Part shown: positions 45,720-64,000 of the stretch, piece by piece
How the letters are laid out: the number at the start of each line of letters is the position of its first letter
How positions within the stretch are numbered: position 1 is the first letter of the stretch
Assembly (NCBI GenBank): GCA_012839295.1
Contig: DUNO01000041.1
Coordinates: 62,001-126,000, forward strand
Source: Clostridiales bacterium
GTDB taxonomy: Bacteria > Bacillota > Clostridia > Lachnospirales > Lachnospiraceae
Length of the DNA: 64,000 bases
Direction: 5' to 3'
Notes under the pieces: generated by a model
Told to the model about the DNA's origin: nothing
Databases searched by the model: none
What the model saw: only the letters and a program-made list of their open reading frames with translations
Program-made: the position numbers and the translations under genes

Positions 45720-45923
45720 AACGCATATCCCCCCACTACTTTATAATATATTTGGTATGGCCTGCAGTGACAGTGTTCCTGTTTTTCATCTTAGACTATG
45801 GGACATTATTTGTCAACCATAGACAGGAAAACCCAAAATATACATTGGGAAGATTATGCTTGAAGCGGGATATGCTTTATATTGGAATAAAATTCAAAGC
45901 ATTGTGAAAGGATAGAATGAGAC

Positions 45924-45952
45924 AACAATTCTTCTAAAAAAGAGGAATTGTT
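45924..45952 (+). promoter_or_regulatory. Leader hairpin before the PelD-like gene
   Basis: AACAATTCTTCT and AGAGGAATTGTT form a 12-bp stem (one G-U) around an AAAAA loop, 22 bases before the start codon. No T tract follows. An exposed A-rich loop in a stable stem is a typical target for an RNA-binding regulator, but this is inference. No convincing promoter was found in the rest of the 255-base gap. Confidence 0.5.
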
Positions 45953-45974
45953 ACATGGGAGTGAAAATATTATT

Positions 45975-48161: not shown

Positions 48162-48247
48162 GAGCAGTCGGCCGCCGCTTACGGACAAGGGATGGACGAA
48201 GGAATGTAAGAATCCGGGGGACTCAGGGTTTTAGAAGGAGAAGGGCT

Positions 48248-49165
48248 ATGGATACAACAGGACTTTGGCCTGTTTTAGCAATATTATTGCTGAATACATT
48301 GGCTGCACTTGCAATATTTATCAGGGCAGTCCTTCAAGGAAAGGGAAAGCGCGCCACATTATTCATGCTGTCCTGGTTCATCTTTATCGTACCGCTTTTC
48401 GGGCTTTTGTATATTCTGCTGGGGCGCTTCATTGGCTTTCTAAACCGGAAAAAGAATGTGGACATGAGTGATGTCAGCTTCAGCCAGGAGAGGGAGAAGC
48501 TCATACTGCCCCCGGACCAGGCGACGGAGATGAATTATGTGCCGATTCAGGATGCCATGGCAGTTTCAGATACCTCCAGCCTGAGGAAGCTGGTTTTGGA
48601 CACCCTGCGTAACAGTGCAAAAAAGACGATTTCCAGCATTGCCGCAGCCATGAACAGCAGGGATACGGAGACCTCCCACTATGCCGCATCGGTGATCCTG
48701 GATGCGCTGTCCCAGTGCCGGACCACGGCGCAGAATATGACAGCCCAGATGCAAAAGCACCCGGAGGATGTGGAAATGAATCTGCTTACCCTTGAGTATC
48801 TCCATGAGATCCTCAGCATGAAGATCATGAATGATATTGAACAGAGGACCTATATCTATATAATGAATGATGCTGCGGAAAATCTCTTTACCCATAATCT
48901 GTGGTACATGAGCGCAACCCATTATCTGTGGATGACGGACTTATTTATTTCTATAAAGGATTATAACATGGCGGACCAATGGGTTACCCGGGCCGGCCAG
49001 TACCGGCCCCAGGCGCTGGATACCTACAAGGCCCGCTTACATCTGTATTTTGAACAGCAGAACCCTGCGGCCTTTTTCGACTGCCTGGAGGAGCTGAGGG
49101 AGGCGGACATCACGGTTGATGATGAGGTTTTGGGTCTGTTCCGCCTTTATGGGAAGAGGCCTTAA
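48248..49165 (+). CDS. pelE: PelE-like membrane-anchored helical-repeat protein
   Basis: 305 aa. Two N-terminal membrane helices (about residues 7-27 and 38-62), a linker, then a soluble helical region with TPR-like pairs (YNMADQWVTRAGQYRPQALD and following). This matches the topology of PelE, which scaffolds the synthase complex. Sequence alone is weak; position between PelD- and PelF-like genes drives the call. AAGGAG precedes the start. It is likely co-transcribed with the PelD gene, 86 bases upstream. Confidence 0.65.
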   Translation: MDTTGLWPVLAILLLNTLAALAIFIRAVLQGKGKRATLFMLSWFIFIVPLFGLLYILLGRFIGFLNRKKNVDMSDVSFSQEREKLILPPDQATEMNYVPIQDAMAVSDTSSLRKLVLDTLRNSAKKTISSIAAAMNSRDTETSHYAASVILDALSQCRTTAQNMTAQMQKHPEDVEMNLLTLEYLHEILSMKIMNDIEQRTYIYIMNDAAENLFTHNLWYMSATHYLWMTDLFISIKDYNMADQWVTRAGQYRPQALDTYKARLHLYFEQQNPAAFFDCLEELREADITVDDEVLGLFRLYGKRP

Positions 49166-49231
49166 GTGGGAAATTATAGGATATAAATTATAACATAATT
49201 ATAACATATATTATAGAAAGAAAAGGGACAA

Positions 49232-51118
49232 ATGGTTTCTATCAGAAATTATTTTACAATTTTCATATTGATGTTAATGGTATTTGTAATGTTCATGTTT
49301 GTGGGCGTATCCTCGAATATTTTATCGGACACCGCCGCCAATAGCCAGGCTCAGGACAGGATTGACGTGGAAGCTAAGGATACCATAACGGCGGATTCCC
49401 TTAACCTGGCCGCGGCTGCGCCCGGAGCCTCCGGGAATGGCAGGAAGGCCTTTTTACCGGAGAAGAAGCAGCGTGTTGCTATCTTGTCGGAAGGCAGGAA
49501 GAGTGGGGTCTCACAATTCCTGGTTGAATGGTGCGTGTATAACAAGTACCTGTACCGGATTTATGGCTCACTGCCGGATGGGGAGGAGATCAGGGACTAT
49601 GCTGTGGTGCTCTTTGGGGATTATACGGTCACGGCAATGGATTTGGGAGTCTTGTATACCTATGCTTCCCTGGGAAAAACCATGATTTTTACCCGGCTTC
49701 CTGATTACCGGGAGATAGCTTCCAACAGGGGACTGGGAGAATTCTTCGGCATCCGGGCAGGAGTTGCCGAGACTGTGACTGCCGACGGCATTAAGGTATT
49801 TTCAGATTTCATGATCAGTAAGGAAAGGATTTATACGAAGGGGGATTATTTTGGTAATGAGGATGACACACAGGTCAGTGTGCCCTATTATTCCCTTGCA
49901 CCGGGCTATGAGGTATATGCAGTGGGAATGCTGGATAACCAGGAGGCTTTGGGGATTGAAAATAAAGATCTCCCTCCCCTTTTATGGAGAACCACCAGGG
50001 GAGAATCCTCTATCTGTGTCATCAACAGCGGACTTTTTGACGGTATGTCCCTGCTGGGGGTATTGACCGGTTTCATGTCCCATCTGGGGGACTATTATGT
50101 GTACCCGGTTGTAAATGCCCAGACCATATCCCTGGTGGATTATCCTTATTTTTCAGATGAAAACGGAGAAACCCTGCAGCAGCTCTACAGCCGGACCTCG
50201 GAGGCTGTGGCAAGGGATCTGCTGTGGCCGAATATCATACAGATCCTGAAAAACTATGGCGGCTCCTACAGCTTTTTCGCGGCTTCCCAGCTGGATTACC
50301 TGGATGGGGTGGGGGCAAAGAAGGATTATATCGGCTTTTATCTGCGTGAGATCCATAAGCTTCCAGGGAATATGGGGCTTTCCCTCGGGCAGGTGTCAGA
50401 TATCAGCCTGGAGGATAAGGTGTCGGAGGATGAGGCCTTTTTTAAGGAATATCTGCCGGACTATGATTTTTCAGCCTTATATACGGCGGATTTTACTGCG
50501 GGTGAGCTTAGGGGCAGCTTAAAAAGCGGGCTCCTTGAGCATATCAGCCTGGTCATGTCGGACTACAGGGAAGGGGACAGGCTGCTGGATTTTTTGGAGG
50601 AGGACATACTTTCAGTAAAATTTAACCTGGACGGATACAAGCATGAGACCAGGGACGACCTGCGTATGGGCAGCATTGAGAATGCCCTTGGCATGTGCAA
50701 TATGAAGGTGGATATCGGACGCGTCTTTTACCCGGAGGGAGACCATGACGAATGGAATTATTTAAGCCTGGAGTGGTCAAAGGGCGACACTTATTTTAAG
50801 GATTATTCCATGCTTGACATGGTGCCGGTTTATGAAATGGAGAAGAGAGCCAGGCGTTTTTTGGCCTTAGATTATGTCTGTGAATATGGACAGAATGAGG
50901 TCAGCATCCGTATCGACCATTTTGATGAGGAAGCATATTTCATCCTTTGCACTAACAACAGGAGCATCGATTCAATTGAAAACGGAACCGCAAAGCCAGT
51001 CTCTGCAACGAAATACCTGATCAAGGCAACGGATGGGGAGGTAAGGATCCATATGATAGAGGAGAATGTTTTGGGGAAGCCTAAGAATGGTAAGACAATC
51101 CCAGGTACACCGCAGTAA
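49232..51118 (+). CDS. PelA-position protein, DUF2194-like, membrane anchored
   Basis: 628 aa. One N-terminal membrane helix (residues about 8-30), then an extracellular region: an early alpha/beta part (VAILSEGRKSGVSQFLVEW; YAVVLFGDYTV) like the amidotransferase-type domain of DUF2194 proteins, a middle domain in the position of a polysaccharide deacetylase, and a C-terminal beta domain. I see no intact NodB TxDD or HxxxH motif, so deacetylation is doubtful. It takes the operon position of PelA, which in Bacillus carries the deacetylase. The ribosome site is weak. Two copies of a structured repeat follow its stop. Confidence 0.65.
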   Translation: MVSIRNYFTIFILMLMVFVMFMFVGVSSNILSDTAANSQAQDRIDVEAKDTITADSLNLAAAAPGASGNGRKAFLPEKKQRVAILSEGRKSGVSQFLVEWCVYNKYLYRIYGSLPDGEEIRDYAVVLFGDYTVTAMDLGVLYTYASLGKTMIFTRLPDYREIASNRGLGEFFGIRAGVAETVTADGIKVFSDFMISKERIYTKGDYFGNEDDTQVSVPYYSLAPGYEVYAVGMLDNQEALGIENKDLPPLLWRTTRGESSICVINSGLFDGMSLLGVLTGFMSHLGDYYVYPVVNAQTISLVDYPYFSDENGETLQQLYSRTSEAVARDLLWPNIIQILKNYGGSYSFFAASQLDYLDGVGAKKDYIGFYLREIHKLPGNMGLSLGQVSDISLEDKVSEDEAFFKEYLPDYDFSALYTADFTAGELRGSLKSGLLEHISLVMSDYREGDRLLDFLEEDILSVKFNLDGYKHETRDDLRMGSIENALGMCNMKVDIGRVFYPEGDHDEWNYLSLEWSKGDTYFKDYSMLDMVPVYEMEKRARRFLALDYVCEYGQNEVSIRIDHFDEEAYFILCTNNRSIDSIENGTAKPVSATKYLIKATDGEVRIHMIEENVLGKPKNGKTIPGTPQ

Positions 51119-51136
51119 GGCGTCCAGCGAGGATAG

Positions 51137-51201
51137 TGTGAAAATAAAGAACAATTTTCACATCCGACATTGAGCGGCTTTACAGCCGAATGATCGTTAG
51201 T
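51137..51201 (+). ncRNA. CGTTAGT intercistronic RNA element, copy 1
   Basis: GTGAAAA (51138-51144) pairs with TTTTCAC (51155-51161), then ATCCGACA (51162-51169), then CGGCT/AGCCG (51175-51179, 51184-51188), then ATGATCGTTAGT (51190-51201). It is followed without gap by copy 2. The element is visible in the sequence; being an RNA element is inference from the paired arms. Confidence 0.7.
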
Positions 51202-51259
51202 GTGAAATACAGAATATTTCACATCCGACAAGTGGCCTGGCGGTCAAGTGATCGTTAGT
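51202..51259 (+). ncRNA. CGTTAGT intercistronic RNA element, copy 2
   Basis: GTGAAATA (51202-51209) pairs perfectly with TATTTCAC (51215-51222), then ATCCGACA (51223-51230), a small GGCC/GGTC stem, and AGTGATCGTTAGT ending at 51259. It lies 84 bases before the chosen PelF start. Confidence 0.75.
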
Positions 51260-51343
51260 ATGGGGGAGTTTTCAGGCTCCACACGCAACGTTGTACCAGG
51301 GAGCAAGAATTTGCAGGCTTTGAAGAAAGGCTGGGTTATTTCC

Positions 51344-52846
51344 ATGAAAGTTTGTATGATAGCGGAAGGCTGTTATCCCTATGTTGTCGGGGGTGTGTCC
51401 AGTTGGATACACAGCATCATTAAATTATTTCCTAATATTGAGTTCAGCCTTATCACGGTTGTATCAGACCGGAGTATCCGCGGCAAATTTGCCTATGAGC
51501 TGCCCATAAACCTGACCCGGATCCATGAGGTTTACCTGCAGGATGTGGATTGGGTAGGACATTATAAAGCAAGGAGAAAGCGGGTGCACCTGAGCAGGAA
51601 GGAGGTAGATGCCCTGCGCAGCCTGATCATCGGTGAAGAGGTGGACTGGATAACGGTGTTTCGGATCTTTCACCGGAAGAATGTCTCCATCAATAATGTC
51701 TTAATGAGCCCGGAGTTCCTGGAGATTACCAAGGAGTACTACTCCCTCCGGTTCTCCGACATTATCTTCTCGGATTTCCTATGGACACTGCGCTCCATCT
51801 ATCTGCCCCTGTTCTTCGCGCTAAAATGCAATCCGCCAAAAGCGGATATATACCACTGTGTGTCCACGGGATATGCAGGGATTATAGGCAGCATGGCCCT
51901 GTCCATCTATCCGGATGCCAGGCTGCTGGTCAGTGAGCATGGAATTTATACCCGTGAGCGTGAGGAGGAGATTATCAAGGCAAAATGGGTCCAGGGCATT
52001 TACAAGACCATATGGATTGAGCAGTTCCGCAAGATGTCTAAGTGCGCCTATTATTTTTCGGATCTGGTAACCTCGCTTTTTGAGCAGGCACAGTCCCTCC
52101 AGATAGAGCTGGGCTGTCCGAAGGAAAAGGCAATTATAACGCCGAACGGGATCAATACGGAGAATTTTGAGAAAATTCCGGGGAAGGAGCCGGAGGATTC
52201 CTACATTAATATAGGTGCTATTGTCCGCGTAACCCCAATCAAGGATGTAAAGACCATGATCAATGCGTTTTACTACGCCCATAAAAAGCAGCCGAGGCTT
52301 AAGCTGTGGATTATGGGGCCGGAGGATGAGGATCCGGAATATGCAGAGGACTGCCGTGAGCTGGTAAGAGCCATGGATGCAAAGAATATAGAGTTCACGG
52401 GCAGGATCCGAACTACGGATTATATCGGAAAAATGGATGTGATGCTCCTTACCAGCATCAGTGAGGGCCAGCCCCTTACGATCCTGGAGGGTTTTGCGGT
52501 AAAAAAGCCCTGCATAGCTACCAATGTAGGAAACTGCCAGGGTCTGATCCATGGGGAAAATGATTCCTTTGGGGATGCGGGAATTGTTGTGCCGGTTATG
52601 AATATCTCTGAGATTTCCAACGCAATTTTAAAGCTGTCAAATAATCCTGGGCTGGCCAGGCAAATGGGTGAGAACGGCTACCGGCGCCTTATGGCCAAGT
52701 ATAAAAGCGTCTATATGGAGGAAAATTATAAGAAAATCTACAAGACCCTGGCAAGAATGAGCGGTATTGCATATACGGAGGAGGCATTCCTTCCTCCGCA
52801 GAAGGGTGGTTCTGTGGAGAAGGAATTCATCAAGACAGAGAGGTGA
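51344..52846 (+). CDS. pelF: PelF family glycosyltransferase (GT4)
   Basis: 500 aa, normal for PelF. The cytosolic polymerase that in Pseudomonas uses UDP-GlcNAc/GalNAc to build Pel. Starts VCMIAEGCYPYVVGGVSSWI, the PelF signature. The GT4 EX7E motif is in SEGQPLTILEGFA, and ITPNGINTENF and VRVTPIKDVKTMI are typical. The start at 51344 is chosen by family; only a weak AAAGG lies 13 bases upstream. The longer frame from 51248 would translate through copy 2 of the RNA element. PelG follows after nine bases. Confidence 0.93.
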   Translation: MKVCMIAEGCYPYVVGGVSSWIHSIIKLFPNIEFSLITVVSDRSIRGKFAYELPINLTRIHEVYLQDVDWVGHYKARRKRVHLSRKEVDALRSLIIGEEVDWITVFRIFHRKNVSINNVLMSPEFLEITKEYYSLRFSDIIFSDFLWTLRSIYLPLFFALKCNPPKADIYHCVSTGYAGIIGSMALSIYPDARLLVSEHGIYTREREEEIIKAKWVQGIYKTIWIEQFRKMSKCAYYFSDLVTSLFEQAQSLQIELGCPKEKAIITPNGINTENFEKIPGKEPEDSYINIGAIVRVTPIKDVKTMINAFYYAHKKQPRLKLWIMGPEDEDPEYAEDCRELVRAMDAKNIEFTGRIRTTDYIGKMDVMLLTSISEGQPLTILEGFAVKKPCIATNVGNCQGLIHGENDSFGDAGIVVPVMNISEISNAILKLSNNPGLARQMGENGYRRLMAKYKSVYMEENYKKIYKTLARMSGIAYTEEAFLPPQKGGSVEKEFIKTER

Positions 52847-52855
52847 GCTTAAAGC

Positions 52856-54298
52856 ATGGCAGGTATCGGTGTCCAGTTAAACAAAATATTTGACAAGCAT
52901 ACGGTGACTTCCTCCCTTTACGGGATTGGTTTTAGCTTCGTGAATACAATTGCGCCGATGCTGGTGGTCATAGGATGCCTTTTGGCTATGTATGGGGTAT
53001 TGGGCTTTGATGAAGTAGGATATCTGGAAAGGGAGACCTTTTCCAGCAGCATTTTGTATGTTTTTATTTTCTCCCTTTTGACCTCCTCGCCCTTTAATTC
53101 GGTGCTTTCAAAATTCCAGACGGACAGGATTTATGAGCAGCGGTATGAGGATATCAGGCCCTGCATCTATGTGGGAACCCTTACAAACCTGACGGTTTCC
53201 TCCCTTCTTGCAATACCCTTCTATAGCTATGAGGTGGTTGTGGGCAAGGTTCCTGTCTACTATGTGTTTACGACCTATCTGGGCTTTTTGGGGCTGACGC
53301 TGACCTTTTCCACCATGGTGTATAATTCCATCCTGAAGCAGTACAAGAAGATTACGATATATTTTATCTTCTCCATGATCGTCTCCTTTTTATTGTCCAT
53401 GGTTTTTTGCTTCCTCTTGGACTTTTCGGTTACCTATAGCATGCTCCTGGCCCTGACAATCGGCTTTCTGCTGATCGCATCCCTGGAGATTGCAAATGTG
53501 CTGCAGTATTTTACCGCCAACAGCCGCAAATATAGGGATGTGCTGCATTATTACCGTATCTACTGGAAGCTGATTGCTTCTAATTTCTTATATACCCTGG
53601 GTCTGTTCATCCACAACTTTGTATACTGGGCACAGCCCTGGCATCTGGTGGTGCGTGACACCTATGTAAGCAACCAGTCCTATGATATGGCTTCCTGCCT
53701 TGCCATGTTTACCAATATTTCTGCCAGTGTATTGTTTATTTCCAGGGTGGAGATGCATTTCCATGAAAGATACCAGGATTATGTCCAGGCTGTGATCGGC
53801 GGTAAGCTGGACAGCATTGAGAAGACGAAGAAAAGAATGTTTAGCGGGCTCTCCTCCCAGCTGCTTTCCCTGACCCATCTCCAGTTTATTGTTTCCGTGG
53901 TAGTCTACCTGGTGGCAATTGTAATCCTGCCGATTACGGGATTTTCCGGTATGATTATGGAGATCTATCCGCAGCTGGCGGTTGGGTACTTTTTGTCCTT
54001 TCTGATGTATTCGGAGATGTTGTTTTTGTATTATTTTGATGACTTTACGGGTGCTGCCGTGAATGGTGTGATTTTCGCCGGAGTTTCCTTTGCAGGATCG
54101 ATTATAGTATCCAGACTGCCTGCTATATGGTATGGATTGGGGTTTACGGCAGCTGCCTTTTTGGCTTTTACCTTTGCATACTTTAGGCTGCGCTGGATTG
54201 AGAAAAACCTGGACAGACATGTTTTTTGCAGGGGGGCGGTTTTAAAGCAGGTTAGCGGGGATATGCCGGAGGCTGATGTGTACAATGTATATAAATAA
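52856..54298 (+). CDS. pelG: PelG family polysaccharide exporter
   Basis: 480 aa Wzx-like membrane protein with about 12 helices. The N-terminus GVQLNKIFDKHTVTSSLYGI and the loop LSKFQTDRIYEQRYEDI are PelG-specific. It should move the polymer across the membrane with PelD and PelE. GAGGTGAG precedes the start. It is adjacent to pelF, completing the pelDEAFG order of Gram-positive Pel loci. Confidence 0.92.
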   Translation: MAGIGVQLNKIFDKHTVTSSLYGIGFSFVNTIAPMLVVIGCLLAMYGVLGFDEVGYLERETFSSSILYVFIFSLLTSSPFNSVLSKFQTDRIYEQRYEDIRPCIYVGTLTNLTVSSLLAIPFYSYEVVVGKVPVYYVFTTYLGFLGLTLTFSTMVYNSILKQYKKITIYFIFSMIVSFLLSMVFCFLLDFSVTYSMLLALTIGFLLIASLEIANVLQYFTANSRKYRDVLHYYRIYWKLIASNFLYTLGLFIHNFVYWAQPWHLVVRDTYVSNQSYDMASCLAMFTNISASVLFISRVEMHFHERYQDYVQAVIGGKLDSIEKTKKRMFSGLSSQLLSLTHLQFIVSVVVYLVAIVILPITGFSGMIMEIYPQLAVGYFLSFLMYSEMLFLYYFDDFTGAAVNGVIFAGVSFAGSIIVSRLPAIWYGLGFTAAAFLAFTFAYFRLRWIEKNLDRHVFCRGAVLKQVSGDMPEADVYNVYK

Positions 54299-54319
54299 GT
54301 CGAGGGTTAGGCTGTGAGA

Positions 54320-54448
54320 TGAATCTGAGTGCAGATATATCCACCTGGGCTTGCCTTTAACATCCCATGATTGCCAAGTGCAGGCAATCATGGGATGCCC
54401 GGTCTGCGCCCAGATGGATATATCTGCACTCAGATTCACCGCGTTAGT
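54320..54448 (+). repeat. 119-bp nested inverted repeat ending near CGTTAGT
   Basis: Outer arms of 31 bases, 54320-54350 and 54408-54438, pair with one mismatch. Inside, CATCCCATGATTGCC (54361-54375) pairs perfectly with GGCAATCATGGGATG (54383-54397). CGCGTTAGT (54440-54448) follows, resembling the tail of the intercistronic element. The remaining 110 bases to the next gene contain AT-rich repeats of AAGTNAGTTTAA-like sequence. No T tract, transposase or clear target duplication is seen. Confidence 0.85.
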
Positions 54449-54565
54449 ATTTGGTATAAAGAAGCATTTGTTGGGGGGATTATATAAGTAAGTTTAATGT
54501 AAGTGAATTTTATATAAGTTAACATAGGAATGGGATTAAGCTCTTGGGAAAAGGAGTGTTGTTGT

Positions 54566-54973
54566 ATGTCGGTTACGCTTCGTGTGTTTATTTGTCTTTC
54601 TGGACTGGTGCTGATTTATATGGCGCGGCGGGCCAGTATTGTCCGTAAGATGACGGAGAGGCAGAGCTTGTTTTGGATTTTGGGCGGGGTTACGATTATT
54701 GCATTTGGGTTGCTGCCGCAGCTGGTTTATTTTATTTCGGACCGGTTTGCAGTTGAATATCCGCCGTCTATTATATTTGCTATTGCGATTATTCTTGCGA
54801 CCTATGGGATTTTTGACTGCTATAAGTCGAATGCGGAATTATCTGCCCGGGTGCAGGAGCTTGCCATGCAGGTGTCGCTGTTGAATGAGGAAAACAGTCA
54901 TCTGGTGGAGCGGCTGATGGCGCTGGCTCCTGGGGATGAAGGCGGGAAGGACGGGGAGAAATCCGACGGATGA
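54566..54973 (+). CDS. DUF2304 membrane protein
   Basis: 135 aa. Three predicted helices (VFICLSGLVLIYMA; FWILGGVTIIAFGLL; IIFAIAIILATYGIF) and a C-terminal coiled coil (LSARVQELAMQVSLLNEENS). DUF2304 proteins accompany DPM1-type GT2 enzymes like the one at 56196 and may anchor or modulate them. The start at 54566 follows AAAGGAG. It overlaps the next gene by four bases. Confidence 0.85.
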   Translation: MSVTLRVFICLSGLVLIYMARRASIVRKMTERQSLFWILGGVTIIAFGLLPQLVYFISDRFAVEYPPSIIFAIAIILATYGIFDCYKSNAELSARVQELAMQVSLLNEENSHLVERLMALAPGDEGGKDGEKSDG

Positions 54974-56199
54974 AAAAGCTTTTATTTATCATTAATACTA
55001 TGGGACAGGCTGGTGCGGAGACGGCTTTGGTCCAGCTGTTAAAGCAGCTGGATGCTATGGGGGAATATGAGCTGTTTTTGTATGCTGTTATTCCTTGTGG
55101 GGAGCTGTTTGGGCGGGTACCTGAAAAGGTGCATATTTTAAACCGGCATGTCAGCAGAAGCGCCCTGCTTTCCAGTGGGGGACGCCTGTGGATTGCAGGG
55201 GCCGTGGCAGCCTCCTTCTTTTATAAGCTGACCGGTTTTAGGCTGCTTGGTTATATGGTGAAAAATCTTAGGGAGCAGAGGGCTTCCCGGGGAAGGCTCC
55301 AGTATGACAAGCTGCTTTGGAGGCTTCTGGCGGATGGCCGTCCGGATATTGGGGGATACTATGACCTGGCGGTAGCTTATATTGAAGGGGCGGCAGCGTA
55401 TGTCCTGGCGGATAAGGTGAGGGCGCACCATAAGGCGGCATTTATCCATATTGATTATAAGGAAGCCGGCTATACGCCCCTGATGGACCAGGATTGTTAT
55501 AGGGTAGCGGAAAGGATATTTGTAGTATCCAGGGAAGTGGGCGAAAGGTTTGGAAGCGTTTATCCCCAGTACCGGGACAGGATAAGGCTGTTCCGCAATC
55601 TGTTGGACAAGGATGGCATCTGCAGGATGGCGGAGGAAGGGGAAGGCTTTACGGATGGCTTCGAGGGGATCCGCCTGCTGACAGTCGGACGCCTGCACTA
55701 CCAGAAGGGCTACGATATTGCCATTAAGGCTCTGGCGAGGCTGAGGAGGGATGGCTATCCTGTTCGCTGGTATGTGATTGGCGAAGGAGCGGAAAGAAGA
55801 AATCTTGAGATTCTGATTAAAAAATATGGCGTGGAGGAATACTTTATCCTGATGGGAGCCAAGGACAATCCCTATCCATACATGAAGCAGGCAGATATCT
55901 ACGTGCAGGCCACCCGCTTTGAGGGAAAGAGCATAGCGGTGGAGGAGGCGCAGATACTGGGGAAGGTGATTGTCGCATCGGACTGTACCGGTAATACGGA
56001 GCAGATCAGGTCAGGCTATGACGGTATCCTGCTGGCACTGGAGGAAGAGAATTTAGCGCATGGGTTGGAGCGGCTGATTGATGAGCCGGAGCTGCAGAAG
56101 GAGTATGCAAGACATGTGCTGGAGAAGAAAATCGGTTTTTTGGAGGATCTGGACTGCATGCTGGAATTGCTGGACGACGGGAAGGATGGGTTGTTATGA
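54970..56199 (+). CDS. GT4 family glycosyltransferase
   Basis: 409 aa. N-terminal INTMGQAGAETALVQLLKQL is the acceptor-side GT4 motif and VGRLHYQKGYDIAIKALARL starts the donor domain; the EX7E region is EGKSIAVEEA. Cytosolic or membrane-associated, donor unknown. ATGA overlaps at both ends couple it to the DUF2304 gene and the GT2 gene. Confidence 0.9.
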   Translation: MKKLLFIINTMGQAGAETALVQLLKQLDAMGEYELFLYAVIPCGELFGRVPEKVHILNRHVSRSALLSSGGRLWIAGAVAASFFYKLTGFRLLGYMVKNLREQRASRGRLQYDKLLWRLLADGRPDIGGYYDLAVAYIEGAAAYVLADKVRAHHKAAFIHIDYKEAGYTPLMDQDCYRVAERIFVVSREVGERFGSVYPQYRDRIRLFRNLLDKDGICRMAEEGEGFTDGFEGIRLLTVGRLHYQKGYDIAIKALARLRRDGYPVRWYVIGEGAERRNLEILIKKYGVEEYFILMGAKDNPYPYMKQADIYVQATRFEGKSIAVEEAQILGKVIVASDCTGNTEQIRSGYDGILLALEEENLAHGLERLIDEPELQKEYARHVLEKKIGFLEDLDCMLELLDDGKDGLL

Positions 56200-56969
56200 A
56201 TAAAGTGCTGGTAATAGTTCCTGCATTTAATGAAGAAGAGAATATGGCACCTTTGTTTGACCAGCTTTGTTCGCCCCGGATCAGGAGATTTGCGGATATC
56301 CTGGTGGTGAATGATGCGTCCACGGACCGGACCGGATTTATTGCTAAGAACTATGGTGTATCTGTAGTCACCCATGTCTTTAATCTGGGCTATGGTTCTG
56401 CCCTCCAGGTGGGTTATAAATATGCGGTCCGCCGTGGCTATGACTACGTCATACAGATGGATGCGGACGGGCAGCATAATATATCCAATATAGCCCATAT
56501 TTATAAATGCCTGACAACGCCGGCCGAAGACGGCAGCCTGCCGGACATTGTCATCGGCTCCCGTTTTGTGAAAGGGAGCCATTCCTTTAAAATATCGGGG
56601 TTAAAGAAGGTTTCCCTTGCCATGTTTTCCGGGATTATTAAGAGAGTAACCGGCAAGACAATTACGGATCCTACCTCAGGACTGCAGGGTTTGAATAAAA
56701 GAGCATTTACATATTACTCAAAATATGGAAATTTCGATTATTTCTACCCGGATGCCAACATGATAATCCAGATGCTGCTGTTAGGCTTCCGCGTTGAGGA
56801 AACGGCATCCGTAATGCACGAACGGACGGCGGGGGTTAGCATGCACACAGGACTGTTCAAGCAGATGGTTTATATGTTAATCATGCCGCTCAGCATCCTG
56901 ACGGTGATAACGCGGGTTAAAAGCGGGCTGCAGAAATCGGATTTACTGCCTCCAAAGAAACATAAATAA
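56196..56969 (+). CDS. GT2 family glycosyltransferase, DPM1-like
   Basis: 257 aa GT-A fold. VIVPAFNEEENMAPL binds the nucleotide, QMDADGQH holds the DxD metal site, and IGSRFVKGS follows. Enzymes of this type charge undecaprenyl or dolichyl phosphate with a hexose. A DUF2304 gene two steps upstream fits that group. The stop codon lies inside the first unit of a 29-base repeat, so the last residues PPKKHK may have been created or altered by repeat expansion. Confidence 0.92.
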   Translation: MNKVLVIVPAFNEEENMAPLFDQLCSPRIRRFADILVVNDASTDRTGFIAKNYGVSVVTHVFNLGYGSALQVGYKYAVRRGYDYVIQMDADGQHNISNIAHIYKCLTTPAEDGSLPDIVIGSRFVKGSHSFKISGLKKVSLAMFSGIIKRVTGKTITDPTSGLQGLNKRAFTYYSKYGNFDYFYPDANMIIQMLLLGFRVEETASVMHERTAGVSMHTGLFKQMVYMLIMPLSILTVITRVKSGLQKSDLLPPKKHK

Positions 56970-57037
56970 CCATTCTGTTTCCAAAGAAATAGAAATAGCC
57001 ATTCTGTTTCCAAAGAAACATAAATAACCATTCTGTT
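56951..57037 (+). repeat. Three 29-bp tandem units spanning a stop codon
   Basis: Units start at 56951, 56980 and 57009, each with TCCAAAGAAA and CATTCTGTT at fixed positions; unit 2 differs at three to four bases. Unit 1 contains the GT2 stop codon. Confidence 0.9.
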
Positions 57038-57068
57038 TCTTGTGAAGCGGTTGAAAGAGGGTTCAGTT

Positions 57069-58433
57069 ATGCCACAAAATAATAGGGTTACTAAAATAAA
57101 ATGGATGCCGCTCCCAAGGACAGAAAAAGCGGAGGCACTGAAGAATCCATATTGCGGGCTATACGTCATCTTTCGTTTTTATGCCGGCAGCGACAGGAGG
57201 TATCCGACCGGGGAAGTGATCGAAAGCATTCTGCCGGATCCGGACCAGCAGCTCTGCCTTATGGAAATAAACCTGCTTCCCTACCGTGAGGAGCCTTTGC
57301 CGGAGGGAGCCTTGCATATTATAAGGCGGGTGATCCGGCATTTCGCATCCCAGGGAAAGCAGCTGATCCTGCGCTTCATGTATGACTGGGAGGGAAAGGG
57401 TGTGCTCAATGAGCCTAAGGATATTGGGATTATTTTAGGCCATATGGGTCAGTTGTCGCCACTGCTTAAGGAGTATACGGAGGCTATCTATATTTTACAG
57501 GGGCTTTTTATCGGCAGCTGGGGAGAGATGCACAGCTCCCGGTATCTTGGCGAGCGCAGCATGGTACGCCTGGCGAAGCAGATATATGGGTGTGCCGGGG
57601 AGAAGACACAGATTGCGCTGCGCTGTCCGAGCTTCTGGCGGATGATATTTAAAACCTACCATCCCCTGGATGGGGCCGAGGCCTTTACCGGCATCCAGAA
57701 GGCAAGGTTCGGCCTGTTCAACGATGGAATCATGGCGTCAGAGGCGGATTTTGGCACCTATGGCAGTATCAGTGCCATGGATGCCAAAGCCTACGGCGAT
57801 AAGTGGCTTCGGGAGGAGGAGCTGGAATTCCAGAATAAATTATGCAGGTATGTTTCCAATGGCGGAGAGGTGATTCATGAATGCCCTTACAATGATGCGG
57901 AGCAGGCAATAGAAACCTTAAGGAGGATGAGGGTATCCTACCTGCACGCAGAATATGACGAGGGGGTGCTTAGCAAATGGAAGGCTGCCAGGCTTGGCTC
58001 CCCATATGCCCCATGGAAGGACAGAACTGCCTTTGAATATATTGAGGCACATCTGGGATACCGTTTTACCCTGGGGGAAGCCAGTCTGTCGCCGGCTCCC
58101 GGTAAGGGCAGTCTAAGGGCGGCGGTGAAGATTACGAACAAGGGCTTTGCACCCTGCTACCATAAATTTGAGATTAAATTTATAGTCCGTACAGCATCCT
58201 TTTCGGAGGTGCATGAGTATGGGGTTGACACAGATACCCGCAGGTGGATGCCGGAGGAGAGGGTAGAGCTGGAGACGGAGATACCTGTCTCAGGTTGGGG
58301 GCAGAAAAGCTATATCCTGGGCTTTAGCATCTATGATCCGCGGTCCGGACAGCCGATCCGGATTGCGAATACCTTTTCGGCGGCTGACCATATGGGCGTG
58401 TATAGCCTTGGTAATTTTATGCTTGGTACTTAA
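57069..58433 (+). CDS. DUF4832-like TIM-barrel protein
   Basis: 454 aa, no signal peptide. NPYCGLYVIFRFYAG, KQLILRFMYDWEGKG, LQGLFIGSWGEMHSSRY and IALRCPSFWR match the DUF4874/DUF4832 pair, a glycoside-hydrolase-like barrel with a C-terminal beta-sandwich (KITNKGFAPCYHKFEIKF). GH activity is plausible because Glu and Asp residues line the barrel, but is not established. AGAGGG precedes the ATG; an in-frame GTG nine codons upstream is less likely. Lack of export signal is odd for an enzyme acting on a secreted polymer. Confidence 0.75.
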   Translation: MPQNNRVTKIKWMPLPRTEKAEALKNPYCGLYVIFRFYAGSDRRYPTGEVIESILPDPDQQLCLMEINLLPYREEPLPEGALHIIRRVIRHFASQGKQLILRFMYDWEGKGVLNEPKDIGIILGHMGQLSPLLKEYTEAIYILQGLFIGSWGEMHSSRYLGERSMVRLAKQIYGCAGEKTQIALRCPSFWRMIFKTYHPLDGAEAFTGIQKARFGLFNDGIMASEADFGTYGSISAMDAKAYGDKWLREEELEFQNKLCRYVSNGGEVIHECPYNDAEQAIETLRRMRVSYLHAEYDEGVLSKWKAARLGSPYAPWKDRTAFEYIEAHLGYRFTLGEASLSPAPGKGSLRAAVKITNKGFAPCYHKFEIKFIVRTASFSEVHEYGVDTDTRRWMPEERVELETEIPVSGWGQKSYILGFSIYDPRSGQPIRIANTFSAADHMGVYSLGNFMLGT

Positions 58434-58470
58434 CAGGCTTAGCAGAAGCTGGCAAAGCGGAGGAATGATG

Positions 58471-60435
58471 ATGGGAAATTCATTGCTAAGTGTGGTCTTG
58501 ATTGCAAGGAGGAATACCTCCCTGAGTATTTTGCGCGCATTAAACAGCATACTTAATCAGATATATTCCCCTATTAAGATAGAGGTTGTGGATGCCAATG
58601 AGCCAAACAGCATGTATAGCCTTGGCCTGCAGGAGGATCTGGCGGCCTATCCGGGAGTGGACTACCTCCAAATGGATCCTCTGCTCTCCATAGCCGAGAT
58701 CCGCAACTATATGCTTCGCCATACGGATGGGGAGTATATTGCATTCTTAAGCAGCAATGATGTATGGGAGCGGAGCATGGCGCTCCTGCAGCTGGAGCAG
58801 CTTAAAGGGGAGCCGGAGGCGGCTGCAGCCTTTTGTAACGGTGTAATAGTTGATAGAAGAAAATCCCATGTGGTAGTGGAGCCGCTGGCGGAGCATCTGA
58901 CCCTGGAGTCTTCAAAGTGGCTTTTGGATAACCCGGCGAAAATGTCTGCGCAGGTCATCTACCGGGCGGAGGCACTTAAGTCAGCAGGTGGCTTTGACGG
59001 GCGGTTTGAAAACTTTTGTGACGGGGATATGCTGGTCAGGCTCAGCAAGGGACATAAAATCCTGGCACTGCCCCTTTCCCTGTGTGAATGCACGGTTACG
59101 CCGGATCATGAGGATTATGATTTAAATAACTTCAGGGATGGACAGAAGATCCTTTATAAATATATGGACTTCTTTTTACTGGATAAGCGTATGACACAGA
59201 GGTTTTATGGGAAGATGCTGTATCTGGCAAAAATCAATTATCTGTGGCTGAATTATTTTGCCTATGCCATCCTTTATTTTATGAAGGCTCCGGGGCGTGC
59301 TGCCCTGGGCCTGCTCGGGAAGCTGGCCCGTCTGTTTGGTTATTTGTTAAAATGGATCCGCAGGGAGCTATCTATAGGAAAGGAAGGGATCCGTATGGAT
59401 ATGCTTCTTATCCGCGGGGGAAGAATTGGGAAGCGAAAGAGCCTGACTGCCATGACCCCGGAAGCGGGGATAGGAAAGGGGGAAAGCAAAAAAGAGACGC
59501 CGGTGGTTTTTTCTTCCGCCCGTTCTTATAATGAGCACAGGTCCCTGGATTTTGTATTTGACCATAAGCTGAAAAGCCTGATTATCCCCGAATATGTCAC
59601 TGTCATTAAGAAGTGTATGTTCTATGGCTGTGACCAGCTGGTTTCCATTGAAATACCAAGCACAGTGCTTGAGATCCAGGATCATGCATTCCAGGGATGC
59701 AGGAGGCTGCGGCATATTGTCATCCGGGAGGGAAGCCGTCTGGGGAAGATCGGCGCCTATGCCTTTGCAGGCTGCAGCGCCCTGGAAACACTGATCCTGC
59801 CCTCCGGCATTGTCCAGCTGGGGAAGGGGGCATTTGCCGGGTGCTGTTCCTTAAAGCGGCTGCTCTTTACCTATACCAGCCGGGAGAAGGAGAAGACCGA
59901 AAGCATCCTTCCGACTGCGATTGTGAAGCTTCCGCGCTATGTCTTTGCAGGCTGCATGAATCTTCTAACTGCTGAATTTGGCGCCGGAAGTATGCTGGAA
60001 ATAGTGGAAGATGGCGCTTTTATGGGCTGCGTAAGGCTGCAGAGGGTTCTTTTGACAGGAAGGGTAAAAAGCTTGGGAAGCTATGCCTTTGCTTATTGCA
60101 GGAAGCTTGAGACGGCGGTCCTTCCCCAGATTGATGCCTTGGAATATATGGGGAAGGGCGCCTTCCTGCAATGTGAGGCATTGACTTATTTCCAGCTTTC
60201 CAATCAGATGGAGCGGATCCATATGCGCACCTTCTATGGCTGCTCCAGCTTAAAGCTGATTAAGGTGCCAAAGAAAGTGCTTTCCATCAACCATCAGGCC
60301 TTTGCAAGATGCAGGGCTCTCGAGAAAGCGATCATAATGACGGGAGATATCGCAATTTCGTCCACAGCTTTTGAAAAGCATACGGAGGTTGAAATACAGG
60401 AAAATCCGCCTACAGAGGTGTTTTTTGGACAATAG
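58471..60435 (+). CDS. GT2 glycosyltransferase fused to BspA-type leucine-rich repeats
   Basis: 654 aa. Residues about 1-235 are a GT-A domain (LLSVVLIARRNTSLSILRAL; IAFLSSNDVWERSM; CNGVIVDRRKSH; GGFDGRFENFCDGDMLVRLS). About 240-300 is hydrophobic or amphipathic helix (NYFAYAILYFMKAPGRAAL), likely membrane associated. A basic linker leads to ten LRR_5 units from about residue 357, each with an AFxGCxxL core (HAFQGCRRL, YAFAGCSAL, GAFMGCVRL). No signal peptide is seen. Of three ATGs in a row the third, at 58471, has best spacing to GGAGG. LRR_5 units usually sit on secreted proteins, so this fusion is unusual. Confidence 0.8.
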   Translation: MGNSLLSVVLIARRNTSLSILRALNSILNQIYSPIKIEVVDANEPNSMYSLGLQEDLAAYPGVDYLQMDPLLSIAEIRNYMLRHTDGEYIAFLSSNDVWERSMALLQLEQLKGEPEAAAAFCNGVIVDRRKSHVVVEPLAEHLTLESSKWLLDNPAKMSAQVIYRAEALKSAGGFDGRFENFCDGDMLVRLSKGHKILALPLSLCECTVTPDHEDYDLNNFRDGQKILYKYMDFFLLDKRMTQRFYGKMLYLAKINYLWLNYFAYAILYFMKAPGRAALGLLGKLARLFGYLLKWIRRELSIGKEGIRMDMLLIRGGRIGKRKSLTAMTPEAGIGKGESKKETPVVFSSARSYNEHRSLDFVFDHKLKSLIIPEYVTVIKKCMFYGCDQLVSIEIPSTVLEIQDHAFQGCRRLRHIVIREGSRLGKIGAYAFAGCSALETLILPSGIVQLGKGAFAGCCSLKRLLFTYTSREKEKTESILPTAIVKLPRYVFAGCMNLLTAEFGAGSMLEIVEDGAFMGCVRLQRVLLTGRVKSLGSYAFAYCRKLETAVLPQIDALEYMGKGAFLQCEALTYFQLSNQMERIHMRTFYGCSSLKLIKVPKKVLSINHQAFARCRALEKAIIMTGDIAISSTAFEKHTEVEIQENPPTEVFFGQ

Positions 60436-60451
60436 GGACAGACGGTTTGCG

Positions 60452-60480
60452 GGTGGCCTAAGGGCCAAATGACCGTTAGT
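60452..60480 (+). ncRNA. CGTTAGT intercistronic RNA element, copy 3 (3' half)
   Basis: GGCC (60455-60458) pairs with GGCC (60463-60466), followed by AAATGACCGTTAGT ending at 60480. The upstream GTGAAAT hairpin is missing. It lies 30 bases before the flippase start. Confidence 0.65.
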
Positions 60481-60509
60481 TTGAAGGACCTGAAAGGGTG
60501 TGGGTATGT

Positions 60510-61955
60510 ATGGGCTCGGATGAGAAGAGAAATTACATTTATAATATCATATACCGCCTGTCCATCTGCATATTGCCGCTGGTGGTCACACCCTACGTAG
60601 CCAGGGTGCTGGGCGCGGAGCAGGTTGGAATTTACACCTTTTCCAGTACCGTTGCCTGCTACTTTATTATGTTTGGCAAGCTGGGGCTGGATAACTACGG
60701 GAACCGGAGCATAGCTGCCTGCAGGGAGGATATGGAGAAGCGGAGCAGGGTATTCTGGGGCATTTACCTTCTGCAGCTGGCCACTGCGGCGCTCTCCATC
60801 CTTGCCTTTATCCTGTTAGTCCTGACTGCTTTCCAGGAAGACCGGAGGGTGTACTGGATGCAGCTGGTCTATGTGGCCTCCGTACTTTTTGATGTCAGCT
60901 GGTTTTTCTATGGTATGGAGAGGTTCCGTATCACCATGGTGCGCAGCCTGGTTTCCAGGGCATTGATTATTGTTTTCGTGTTTGTTTTTGTACATTCCGG
61001 CAGGGATCTCTGGGTTTATACCTGTGTCATGTCGGCTTGCTTTTTGCTGGAGCAGGTGCAGCTGCTGCCCTTTCTGTTTGGACAGGTAAAAAGGGTACCT
61101 CTAAAAAAGGAGGACATCCTCTGCCATATCCTGCCGAATGCCAGGCTGTTCATTCCTCTCTTGGCTCTCAGCATTTACAATTGGCTGGATAAGATAATGC
61201 TTGGAGTTATTGTAAAAAGCACCGCGGTAGTTGCTTTTTATGCCTATGCAGAAAATATCGTCAACCTTCCCAAGGGAATCTTGTCGGCGCTGGATACGGT
61301 CATGCTGCCGCGGATCTCCAATCTGGTGGCGAACAACCGCCTGGAAGAGGGGGTGCGGAAAATGAGGAATTCCATCCGGTTTAACAGCTTTATCTGCTGC
61401 ATGCTCTGCTTTGGCATTGCCGGTGTTTCACCCAGTTTTATACCATGGTTCCTCGGGGAGGAATATACACCGACGGTGCTTTTGACCATGGAGCTTGCCA
61501 TGGTCATGATTCCAATGAGTATCGTTAGTATCGTGCAGACACAGTATCTGATACCGTTCCACCGGGAGGAGGTATATATCCGGTCGGTGGCTTTGGGAGC
61601 GTCAACGGATGTTATTTTAAACCTGGTGCTGATCCCTTTTTATGGTGCATCCGGTGCTGTTATCGGTACCCTGGGGGCGGAGCTTGTGGTATGTGCCTAT
61701 CAGTTGTTCCGGATCAGGGAGGTTTATAGATTCCGGCAGCTGTTTCAAACCCTGTTGCCCTTCATGGCCTGCGGTGCGATAGAATTTGGAGCGGTATATT
61801 TTCTCTGCCGCCTACCCTGGAAGCCTTTACCGCTGCTGCTTTTCCAGGTCTGTGTGGGTGGGGTCGTATATCTGGCGGGCTGCGGCATTTATGTAATATT
61901 TATCAGCAGGGAATACCGTAGTGTTGGGGAGATCATTCGGAGTATGAAGCTATAA
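60510..61955 (+). CDS. Wzx-type polysaccharide flippase
   Basis: 481 aa MOP-superfamily protein with 12-14 helices. The N-terminus NYIYNIIYRLSICILPLVVT then PYVARVLGAEQVGIYTFS is the Firmicutes Wzx signature. It flips lipid-linked repeat units. With PelG this locus holds two exporters, suggesting either two polymers or a decorated one. The start at 60510 follows AAAGGG; a GTG at 60498 overlaps that site. Confidence 0.92.
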   Translation: MGSDEKRNYIYNIIYRLSICILPLVVTPYVARVLGAEQVGIYTFSSTVACYFIMFGKLGLDNYGNRSIAACREDMEKRSRVFWGIYLLQLATAALSILAFILLVLTAFQEDRRVYWMQLVYVASVLFDVSWFFYGMERFRITMVRSLVSRALIIVFVFVFVHSGRDLWVYTCVMSACFLLEQVQLLPFLFGQVKRVPLKKEDILCHILPNARLFIPLLALSIYNWLDKIMLGVIVKSTAVVAFYAYAENIVNLPKGILSALDTVMLPRISNLVANNRLEEGVRKMRNSIRFNSFICCMLCFGIAGVSPSFIPWFLGEEYTPTVLLTMELAMVMIPMSIVSIVQTQYLIPFHREEVYIRSVALGASTDVILNLVLIPFYGASGAVIGTLGAELVVCAYQLFRIREVYRFRQLFQTLLPFMACGAIEFGAVYFLCRLPWKPLPLLLFQVCVGGVVYLAGCGIYVIFISREYRSVGEIIRSMKL

Positions 61956-61983
61956 GTTTCGTAATTACCTATGGGGTTATAGC

Positions 61984-62044
61984 GTGAAATGAAGATCATT
62001 TCACATCCGACACCCGGTAGCCTGGTGGTCAAATGATCGTTAGT
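61984..62044 (+). ncRNA. CGTTAGT intercistronic RNA element, copy 4
   Basis: GTGAAATGA pairs perfectly with TCATTTCAC (61996-62004), then ATCCGACA (62005-62012), a small GCC/GGT stem, and AAATGATCGTTAGT ending at 62044. It lies 24 bases before the last gene and seven before its AAAGGAGG. Confidence 0.78.
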
Positions 62045-62067
62045 ACGGAGAAAGGAGGTGGAAGGTG

Positions 62068-64000
62068 ATGATAGTTGATACAAATGCATATGTGCTGTCC
62101 CTGATAAAGGTATTGCTGTGCTGCCTGATCCGGGATTTTGCGGTTCCGCTCCTGGTGTGGAGAAAGCACTTAAGGAAGAAAGGCTATGGTTACCGGTTCT
62201 GGTTTTGCGTGCTTACCCAAGCCAGCCTCCAGATTAATTTGGTACTGCTTCTGGGGTTCTTCAATATCAGCAACCGTTATACGGTGATTGGAAGCAATGT
62301 GGTAATCTATGCCCTGATTGTCTGGAATTATTCCGACAAGAAGTTCTTCCTCCGCTGTAACCGGTTTTTCCGTGACCTGTGGGAGGTCTATAAGGAAGAA
62401 AAGCTGTCCAGGTATATGCTCCAGGGAATGAAGGACGGGCTGAGGAACTGTTGGAAGATGCTATGCCAGCTGCCGCTTTGGGGATACCTGAAAAGGAACT
62501 GGGTGGAAGCCTCCCTCCTTGCAGCTCTGGTGATTTATAATATCTGGTTTTTGACACATAATGTCATGCTGTACCATTGTTATCAATTTTCTGATATTCC
62601 GGTGCACCAATCCTGGATTTATGACCTGGAGCATGGTACCCTGTTCTCTGATGGGATTTATCCCTTTGGAATGCATGTCATGGTGTATATCATCCGCATC
62701 ATTTTCCGACTGAACCTGCGTGAGATCCTGTTGTACGCCGGTGCCTACCAGACGGTTTTGCTTATGATAGCGCTATTTTTACTGGCAAAGGAGATTTTTC
62801 ATGCAAAATATACTCCGGTCACTGTGGTGATGATTATTAGCTTTATGCTGAACCAGAGCCGTTTTGCAGCCTCGCTTCCCCAGGAGGCTGGGATGTATAC
62901 GGTTGTGGGGCTGGCCTATTTCATGCTCCGGTATCTGCATGGGGACAGGAGGAAATTCGTCATAGAACAGGATTCCGCATTCCGGAGGTTCTTCCGCATC
63001 AATGCCTATATTAACCGGAGATATATCAATTCGGAAGCAATTATGCTGATGCTGTGTGTCGCCCTGGTAATTGCTTATCATTTTTATACGGCCATTGCCG
63101 CTATTTTCCTGGTAATTGCCATTGGGCTGGCTTATTTGCCGAGAATCCTTAAAAGGCAATATTTTATTCCGATCCTGTTCTGTGGGATCATGGGGGCGGT
63201 GATCGCAGTCCTGCCAATGGCGGCCTGCCTGGCAAAGGGAATTCCCTTCCAGGAATCAATGGCTTGGGCTACCAGTGTCATCAATAATGAGGAATGGAAG
63301 GGCAGCGATACGTACTACCAGGATATGCTGGCGGAGAAACAGGGCAAGGGAGGCCAGGCTACGGACTCCACAGACCCGGGTTCGGCAAATACGGATTCAT
63401 CAAATACGAATTCATTAAATCCTGATACGTCAGATCTTGATATGCAGGGAAAGGGAGGAACGGGAAAAGGGACGGCTGTCGATTATTCCACAATGACGCC
63501 GGGGGAGATCCTCAAATATGTCTATGGGGCCATGTTTAGCTTTGGAGTTATGGTCATGTTCGGCGGCAGCGCGACGCTGGTAATGTTTTATTGTATGCTG
63601 CTGGGTCTTATCTGCGCGGTTGTGATGCTGCTATGGAAGAAGAACAGGAACTATGGGCATGATTATATCGCTTTGATCCTTAATATGACTATCCTATGCA
63701 TTATCGGGGCAGCCCAGGCGCTGGGAATTATTGAGCTGATAGCGTCCGCCAGGGCGTCCACCTTTGCAGAGCCCTTTGTCGGGCTGATCTATATGCTGCC
63801 GGTGGATTTCGCCTTCCGTATCTTAGGGGGCTGGAAGAGCCGCCATTACCAGACCCTGCTAAGGCTGCTTTCCCTGGGTGTGTGCGGACTGGCGGCGGTT
63901 CTGATCGTGGAGCTGGGGTGGTACCATGCCTATTTCGATGTCAATCAGGCCTATTACAATGAATCGGAGTATCTCACCCGCCATATCAAGAAAGCATATC
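62068..64000 (+). CDS. Large multi-spanning membrane protein (partial at window edge)
   Basis: At least 644 aa, running off the right edge without a stop. AAAGGAGG precedes the ATG at 62068. About ten or more hydrophobic helices are visible (VLLLGFFNISNRY; AYQTVLLMIALFLLAKEIF; AIMLMLCVALVIAYHFYTA; FCGIMGAVIAVLPMAA). A hydrophilic extracellular loop is interrupted by a 5-residue repeat (63382-63441). The topology fits a GT-C transferase or Wzy-type polymerase, consistent with a flippase just upstream, but I cannot name the family. The loop containing YHCYQFSDIPVHQSWIYD near residue 170 could hold active residues. Confidence 0.75.
   Translation, partial: MIVDTNAYVLSLIKVLLCCLIRDFAVPLLVWRKHLRKKGYGYRFWFCVLTQASLQINLVLLLGFFNISNRYTVIGSNVVIYALIVWNYSDKKFFLRCNRFFRDLWEVYKEEKLSRYMLQGMKDGLRNCWKMLCQLPLWGYLKRNWVEASLLAALVIYNIWFLTHNVMLYHCYQFSDIPVHQSWIYDLEHGTLFSDGIYPFGMHVMVYIIRIIFRLNLREILLYAGAYQTVLLMIALFLLAKEIFHAKYTPVTVVMIISFMLNQSRFAASLPQEAGMYTVVGLAYFMLRYLHGDRRKFVIEQDSAFRRFFRINAYINRRYINSEAIMLMLCVALVIAYHFYTAIAAIFLVIAIGLAYLPRILKRQYFIPILFCGIMGAVIAVLPMAACLAKGIPFQESMAWATSVINNEEWKGSDTYYQDMLAEKQGKGGQATDSTDPGSANTDSSNTNSLNPDTSDLDMQGKGGTGKGTAVDYSTMTPGEILKYVYGAMFSFGVMVMFGGSATLVMFYCMLLGLICAVVMLLWKKNRNYGHDYIALILNMTILCIIGAAQALGIIELIASARASTFAEPFVGLIYMLPVDFAFRILGGWKSRHYQTLLRLLSLGVCGLAAVLIVELGWYHAYFDVNQAYYNESEYLTRHIKKAY
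63382..63441 (+). repeat. 15-bp in-frame repeat in the last gene
   Basis: Four 15-bp units encode SANTD, SSNTN, SLNPD and TSDLD within a predicted extracellular loop. Confidence 0.75.

Follow-up and report, generated by a model that had tools for sequence, protein, structure and literature searches.

Spacers of a polysaccharide operon in a 64,000-nucleotide stretch of a Lachnospiraceae genome (Clostridiales bacterium, assembly GCA_012839295.1, contig DUNO01000041.1, positions 62,001 to 126,000; hereafter the window) carry copies of a short repeat, here named type A, whose unit comprises two hairpins and measures about 61 bp (66 columns if the shared ends are counted). Our results point, with a probability of roughly 0.7, to a family of small non-autonomous dispersed repeats of mobile type, comparable in kind to REP/BIME or BOX elements. 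Type A copies fill sites that are empty in relatives, lie between genes and are nearly always in sense orientation; many of them begin exactly at the upstream stop codon, and they occur singly or in tandem. Together with a longer related element, type B, they form an apparently undescribed family: no description was found in the accessible parts of the literature on dispersed or palindromic repeats and miniature inverted-repeat transposable elements (MITEs) of Lachnospiraceae and Clostridia, subscription papers falling mostly outside this scope. Repeats first seen in a single operon should not be taken for operon-specific regulators.

Distribution and turnover of type A units

Type A units run from a TAG triplet through hairpin 1 (GTGAAAT..ATTTCAC), ATCCGACA and hairpin 2 to a tail ATGATCGTTAGT. 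An exact pattern occurred at seven places of the source genome (G000, 6.36 Mb in 82 contigs; other G numbers denote relatives and L numbers fetched loci), of which five lie on other contigs. R1, a covariance model of 12 copies (three taken from the window), returned 84 matches at E 1 or better. At 43 bits or more, at least 74 units were recorded on 31 of the 82 contigs, three within the window and 71 elsewhere; these counts are lower bounds, as 150 of 4146 first-look candidates were scored. The preliminary description, which had placed the copies only between genes of this locus and regarded the motif as confined to one operon, is contradicted on both points. The 74 units formed 56 arrays (42 single, 11 double, two triple and one quadruple), several of which reach contig ends, as repeats that break an assembly would be expected to do.

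Genes flanking the units included an IscR-like regulator and nifS, ruvA and ruvB, flagellar genes, acyl-CoA dehydrogenase with electron transfer flavoprotein (ETF) genes, and two ATP synthase c subunits. Their names were recognised from sequence, without family search, and no common function was seen among the part that was inspected. The one four-unit array met at L083 (G000, contig C33, 355343-355591) lay between two adjacent genes that both resemble an ATP synthase c subunit.

Orientation relative to genes was strongly biased. With gene calls from a small codon-model script of our own, none of the 56 arrays lay inside a called gene; 35 were sense and three antisense in codirectional gaps, seven occupied divergent and five convergent gaps, and six had no called gene on one side. 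The 44 arrays of G228, counted with its weakest matches left out, comprised 30 sense, two antisense, three divergent and three convergent ones, one inside a called gene and five of undetermined context. Codirectional gaps of both genomes together gave 65 sense versus five antisense arrays (binomial p 2e-14, a few sites common to the two genomes not being independent). Convergent gaps (5 of 50 classified G000 arrays) were not enriched against the pneumococcal background given in PMC3049150, a background other than this genome's own (Fisher p 0.59). Against replication-strand bias, considered as a source of this asymmetry, stand two C10 copies of opposite orientation, some 6 kb from each other and each aligned with its upstream gene, on contigs that are unordered. 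Copies scattered in unrelated contexts on both strands, or a lack of covariation, had been proposed as signs of an ordinary intergenic repeat. The contexts are indeed scattered and unrelated, whereas both strands relative to genes were not equally used (65 sense, five antisense) and covariation is present (see below).

The operon itself, which by Pfam comprises a PelG exporter, a DUF3492 glycosyltransferase, a flippase and others, is present in relatives; DUF3492 is the N-part of PelF. The type A unit was lacking from the first operon spacer in 8/8 relatives, from the second in 4/4 and from the third in 2/2 (G223 and G227), a count that leaves out G229, where the flippase gene is not present, and G228, whose contig ends before it. 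Another covariance model (R3), made from 20 type A copies all outside the window, likewise found no unit on 15 operon stretches of relatives. Because the three operon spacers are free of units in the compared relatives, the units are regarded as lineage-specific insertions. The first spacer measures 22 nt in G228 versus 225 nt in G000; its ends in G229 and G223 resemble the right end of type B, within chance (E 0.19 and 0.62). At the second spacer, a TAA stop codon in all four relatives corresponds to TAG in G000.

A similar picture emerged elsewhere in the genome, where 30 loci each were compared for iscR-nifS and ruvA-ruvB among 34 genomes of the genus. R3 detected type A at iscR in 2/30 loci (G000 and G228) and at ruvA in 1/30 (G000); its weakest matches over these loci and the operon stretches (E 0.02 to 0.42) were the reverse strand of the G000 array or single places at chance level. 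Short unit-free iscR-nifS spacers were seen by eye in 13 genomes (15 of 24 loci were parsed and nine missed by the search expression), and the ruvA-ruvB spacer of G228 is 25 nt long (23 of 30 loci compared). The ruvA stop codon is TAA in G228 and TAG in G000. The ruvA-ruvB gap of G217 holds a type B relative (E 1.2e-5), and that of G229 a weaker one (E 0.0094).

Only two of the 34 genus genomes were rich in type A at E 1e-3, G000 with 75 and G228 with 67 matches, the latter set being diverged. Six further congeners had one or two matches (best in G230, 59 bits) and 26 had none; where such a single match lies in G206, G223 or G229, it is the left half of a type B element. Among 200 family genomes, searched with stricter filters and 26 candidates scored in each, type A was matched in G000 alone. 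A strict type A pattern gave no match in a wider genome-contig collection, from which the own genome was possibly left out, nor in viral contigs. The arrays of G000 and the 44 of G228 had five sites in common. At four of these the G000 units resembled the median G000 unit more than they did their G228 counterpart, the exception being L041/L200; the G228 side of this comparison, made with 19 of 47 units, was less clear.

Unit structure, ends and junctions

The four copies of the preliminary description were all recovered by R3 (E 1.5e-21 to 4.4e-5; next-best match in the window, E 0.2), and all lie on the + strand in the direction of the genes. Their edges proved slightly wider than first given, the start of full units being the TAG before GTGAAAT. 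The first unit of a tandem pair (51133..51201, + strand; R3 match 51133-51196, E 2e-12) has, after its TAG head, hairpin 1 arms GTGAAAAT/ATTTTCAC, then a hairpin 2 with outer part CGACATT..AATGATCG and inner part CGGCT/AGCCG, then the tail GTTAGT. Tandem type A units overlap by this GTTAGT, which is common to the second unit (51197..51259, + strand, E 3.4e-20). A degenerate third copy (60432..60480, + strand, E 4.4e-5) is devoid of hairpin 1, as noticed earlier; its TAG at 60433-60435 is the stop codon of open reading frame (ORF) 58333-60435. A single full unit (61979..62044, + strand, 79.9 bits, E 1.5e-21) separates ORF 60498-61955 from the next gene. The tail 12-mer alone, with two mismatches allowed, was seen five times versus 3.7 expected, which is within chance, unlike the whole unit, which exceeds it.

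Rfam 15 at gathering score gave no match in the window, and looser scans of L083 and of seven relatives' loci gave nothing at the elements, on which basis a known RNA family was rejected for the units. Promoters or terminators within them were rejected too, a consensus scan of 45900-63000 having placed no site inside the units; one terminator-like site, at 60407-60420, immediately precedes the third copy and lies within the 3' end of its upstream gene.

Across the 56 arrays TAG marks a sharp left edge (T in 49, A in 56 and G in 51), and the preceding base is little conserved (A26, T18, G7, C5). At the right edge stands GTTAG, behind which the head of the next unit persists in eroded form and is lost within about six bases. 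The unit head TTAGTGTGAAATGA provides stop codons in all three frames. According to the gene caller, the upstream gene stops within the head in 14 of the 44 G000 arrays with a sense upstream gene, at TAG in eight, at the first TGA in three and at the second TGA in three. Judged by open frame, heads close a frame of at least 100 codons in 15/56 arrays. In G228 six such stops fell at TAG and one at the first TGA. An ATG-frame test in the type A tail was dropped, as the element closes the other two frames itself. Terminal inverted repeats were not apparent by eye, the left end GTGTGAAAT not matching the reverse complement of the right end, TAACGATCAT; the terminal repeats of type A are direct, TAGTGTGAA-like at both ends.

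On the one reading that fits the junctions best, insertion would occur at TA, usually that of a TAA stop codon, with an element extending from GTGTGAAAT to CGTTA, so that the copy would begin with G-TGTGAAAT and end with CGTTA. The fit is exact at one place, the iscR-nifS right junction, where CGTTA followed by ATATTATT agrees with TA followed by ATATTATT at the empty site. Arrays would subsequently grow or shrink through exchange between units. A sense copy would be harmless within an operon and antisense copies would be lost, leaving the observed bias. Tolerance of sense copies may stem from three-frame stops that would end the upstream gene at once, from the fact that no terminator-like site lies inside the window copies, and from a downstream gene that would keep, or be given, a ribosome binding site. 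As to mRNA, where any effect of the units is one that we infer, transcribed copies may incidentally alter how the transcript decays or is processed between cistrons.

Type B and other repeats

Type B is a second, longer element whose left hairpin is common to type A (TAGTGTGAAAAAT..ATTTTTCACACGCAACTTTGAGCCTGCGGCCCAAAGTTTGCAGG..GAAGAAAGGCATGGTTATTA). A degenerate copy missed by the earlier reader occurs in the window directly after the tandem type A pair (51277..51345, + strand, 36 bits, E 4.4e-10 in the window). Its match starts at model position 20 of 89, its sequence reads CACACGCAACGTTG..TTTGCAGG..GAAGAAAGG..GGTTATT, and it ends at the ATG (51344-51346) that starts the DUF3492 (PelF-like) glycosyltransferase gene. 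The region 45948-62200 as a whole resembles a Gram-positive Pel polysaccharide cluster, with PelG and the DUF3492 glycosyltransferase identified by Pfam.

With a sequence-only model type B was recorded in 25 of 34 genus genomes, with up to 92 copies per genome and 12 in G000, and at E 1e-6 in 15 of 250 family genomes, the own genome included. A scan of genome contigs with its core uncovered ten stretches, in Herbinix, Lachnoclostridium, Roseburia, Anaerocolumna sedimenticola and other Lachnospiraceae. For its gene context 59 loci were fetched and 57 hits classified, two secondary hits being dropped and two loci having no hit at 1e-5. All 50 hits with a callable downstream gene were sense to it. 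Among 40 hits reaching the model end, 36 placed a start codon precisely at model positions 87-89, in loci that are best matches rather than a random draw and with a model that itself includes this end. In 34 of these 36 the frame stayed open for 50 codons or more. A separate frame count for type B suffers from the closing of frames by the element itself, and the fixed position of the start codon was relied on instead.

The type B core (L117-L126) could form two hairpins, CAACTTTG/CAAAGTT or CCTGC/GCAGG. A pseudoknot between them was considered, but its loop seems too short, and they are taken as putative alternatives. CTTT is able to base-pair with the ribosome binding site in some copies. These predicted structures make a translational switch conceivable, and type B may represent a moving leader or a class of regulatory RNA.

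The distant type B relatives noted above between ruvA and ruvB, at L134 (G229) and L144 (G217), are short hairpin elements whose stem is GTGAAT../..TTCACAC-like, the latter with AGAAGAAAGGCATGATTA ahead of the ruvB start; they are probably further subtypes of one superfamily. A third kind of repeat in the operon, at 54303-54484, is a long palindrome of some 150-180 bp with 86-94% identity to seven other places in the genome, also present in G228. Elements of this kind end in GTTAGT, and a type A unit adjoins one of them at L087.

We tentatively consider it possible, though not the likelier case, that elements such as types A and B form a superfamily of mobile intercistronic cassettes, with three-frame stops at the left and, in type B, a ribosome binding site at the right, set at a constant spacing from the start codon. 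Were this true, the cassettes would enter operons without breaking either gene and would rewrite the translation starts of tens of genes per genome. The family offers a test case for how mobile-type DNA lives inside operons and for whether insertions of this sort might retune translation.

Mobile DNA or selected RNA as possible origins, and relation to known systems

As the preliminary description had it, stem sequences vary while pairing is kept, most clearly in G228. When 47 units of this relative were aligned to R1, 86.4% of cells paired, versus 38.2% or less in slid controls; 15 of 21 pairs changed on both sides, in 99 such cells spread over three helices, and none of 500 shuffles reached the observed values by five measures of covariation. 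Fitting of the alignment relied on hairpin 1 and the inner helix of hairpin 2, and this biases the count. The outer helix (CGA-CATT/AATG-A-TCG), which lies outside the model, occurred in three states, CGA/TCG, CGG/CCG and CTG/CAG. Pairing failed frequently at the two innermost pairs of hairpin 1 and of the outer helix. Covariation alone does not indicate RNA, as a DNA hairpin needed for movement would covary alike.

These data bear on the most serious alternative, a genome-wide cis-acting RNA kept by selection, whose hairpins would serve as RNase sites, decay barriers or a device for translational coupling, and whose conserved ATCCGACA and tail may be bound by a trans factor. The 65:5 sense orientation, the strong covariation of three helices (99 double-changed cells, 0/500 shuffles) and the abutment of type B on start codons are in its favour, as is the outer helix, in which G.U cells outnumber A.C cells (19:6 in the 53 of 74 G000 units that are 66 bases long; 16:6 at the first five pairs in G228). 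Hairpin 1 and the inner helix displayed little such excess (9:10 and 10:7 in G000; 20:17 in G228 for both together, minus the two innermost pairs of hairpin 1). Furthermore, merely five sites are common with the nearest repeat-rich relative, G228, units are present or absent in otherwise conserved operons, 26 of 33 congeners have no match at E 1e-3 and six have one or two, and the flanking genes have no visible common function. Altogether we hold selected RNA to be rather unlikely as the origin of the repeats.

Several observations weigh against the interpretation of type A as mobile-type repeats. No clean target duplication was found, the right ends carrying an eroded head of the next unit over about six bases; the exact junction at iscR-nifS, compatible with TA, is the only one, other right ends being eroded. 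The unit-free first spacer of G228 already has TAG at the insertion point, and for this reason the TAG of that spacer need not stem from the element. Presence or absence between species is not direct proof of transposition. The outer-helix G.U excess in both species could fit RNA selection or strand-biased mutation. No mobilising gene was identified: a search for the Y1 transposase (PF01797), found in 5 of 14 control genomes, gave no match in the G000 draft, and the presence of this transposase in the genus does not follow repeat number. Finally, parasitic repeats such as BOX, RUP and SPRITE of pneumococci favour gaps between convergent genes (PMC3049150); type A, with 65 of its 70 codirectional copies in sense, shows no such enrichment.

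The transposase results also bear on a more specific origin, that of miniature elements of IS200/IS605 type (HUH, RAYT) moved by a Y1 transposase since lost or unassembled. Hairpins near both ends, a TTAG-like cleavage site with TAG/TTAG on both sides, insertion next to a short fixed sequence, tandem units and the L087 unit directly beside another repeat ending in GTTAGT would all suit such elements. Yet, besides the lack of PF01797 in G000, the type-B-rich genomes G204, G229, G217 and G231 have none either, G203 has six but no type A or B match, and the GTAG tag of REPs is absent. This origin was rejected on the missing G000 match and the lack of tracking in the genus, and we consider it improbable.

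An RNA motif specific to the polysaccharide operon, acting in antitermination, processing or regulator binding on one long transcript, as the preliminary description had suggested and as sense copies in three spacers of one operon might favour, is scarcely credible given 71 further strong units elsewhere in G000, relatives that have the operon without units and no match at the Rfam gathering score, and it was rejected on the genome-wide search and the empty sites. What stands of that description is a structured, covarying element aligned with transcription. The operon-specific role is not supported because units occur genome-wide and the same operon of relatives is free of them; a role of transcribed hairpins in general may be compatible with the evidence. 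EAR (eps-associated RNA) and LoaP-type antitermination are known from exopolysaccharide operons as an RNA element and its system. The type A units differ from them in their genome-wide occurrence, their absence from the relatives' operon and the lack of an Rfam match in the window, LoaP itself not having been searched for.

In PMC11109978 multi-copy motifs are sorted as mobile or repeat candidates, above all if they lack a consistent orientation to genes; that of type A is consistent. Like MITEs (PMC10969869), including Correia/NEMIS and ERIC, type A is non-autonomous, mostly intergenic and transcribable with its neighbours; unlike them it showed no terminal inverted repeats, its ends being direct repeats. 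The GTAG- or CGTC-tagged REP elements of the REP/RAYT system (PMC3733652) are likewise short extragenic palindromes, tagged at one end by a few conserved bases, and lie mostly downstream of genes and between unidirectional or convergent ones. Type A departs from them by a TAG head with an unconserved preceding base, which does not constitute a GTAG or CGTC tetranucleotide, by two hairpins per unit, by head-to-tail tandems and by the lack of a Y1 (HUH) transposase match in the genome.

Type A also resembles in kind pneumococcal BOX, RUP and SPRITE, compared here by description and not by sequence. According to PMC3049150, they too are small intergenic repeats of a Firmicute, with predicted hairpins, many copies and no gene of their own, and the modular tandem part of BOX (boxB) parallels the tandem units of type A, which thus has every one of these BOX-like features. 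In the same source, the three pneumococcal elements are enriched between convergent genes and about 61-63% of them lie on the leading strand. This well-studied set of Firmicute repeats sits, in pneumococci, at convergent transcription, whereas type A units occur mostly between codirectional genes, where they often give the upstream gene its stop codon.

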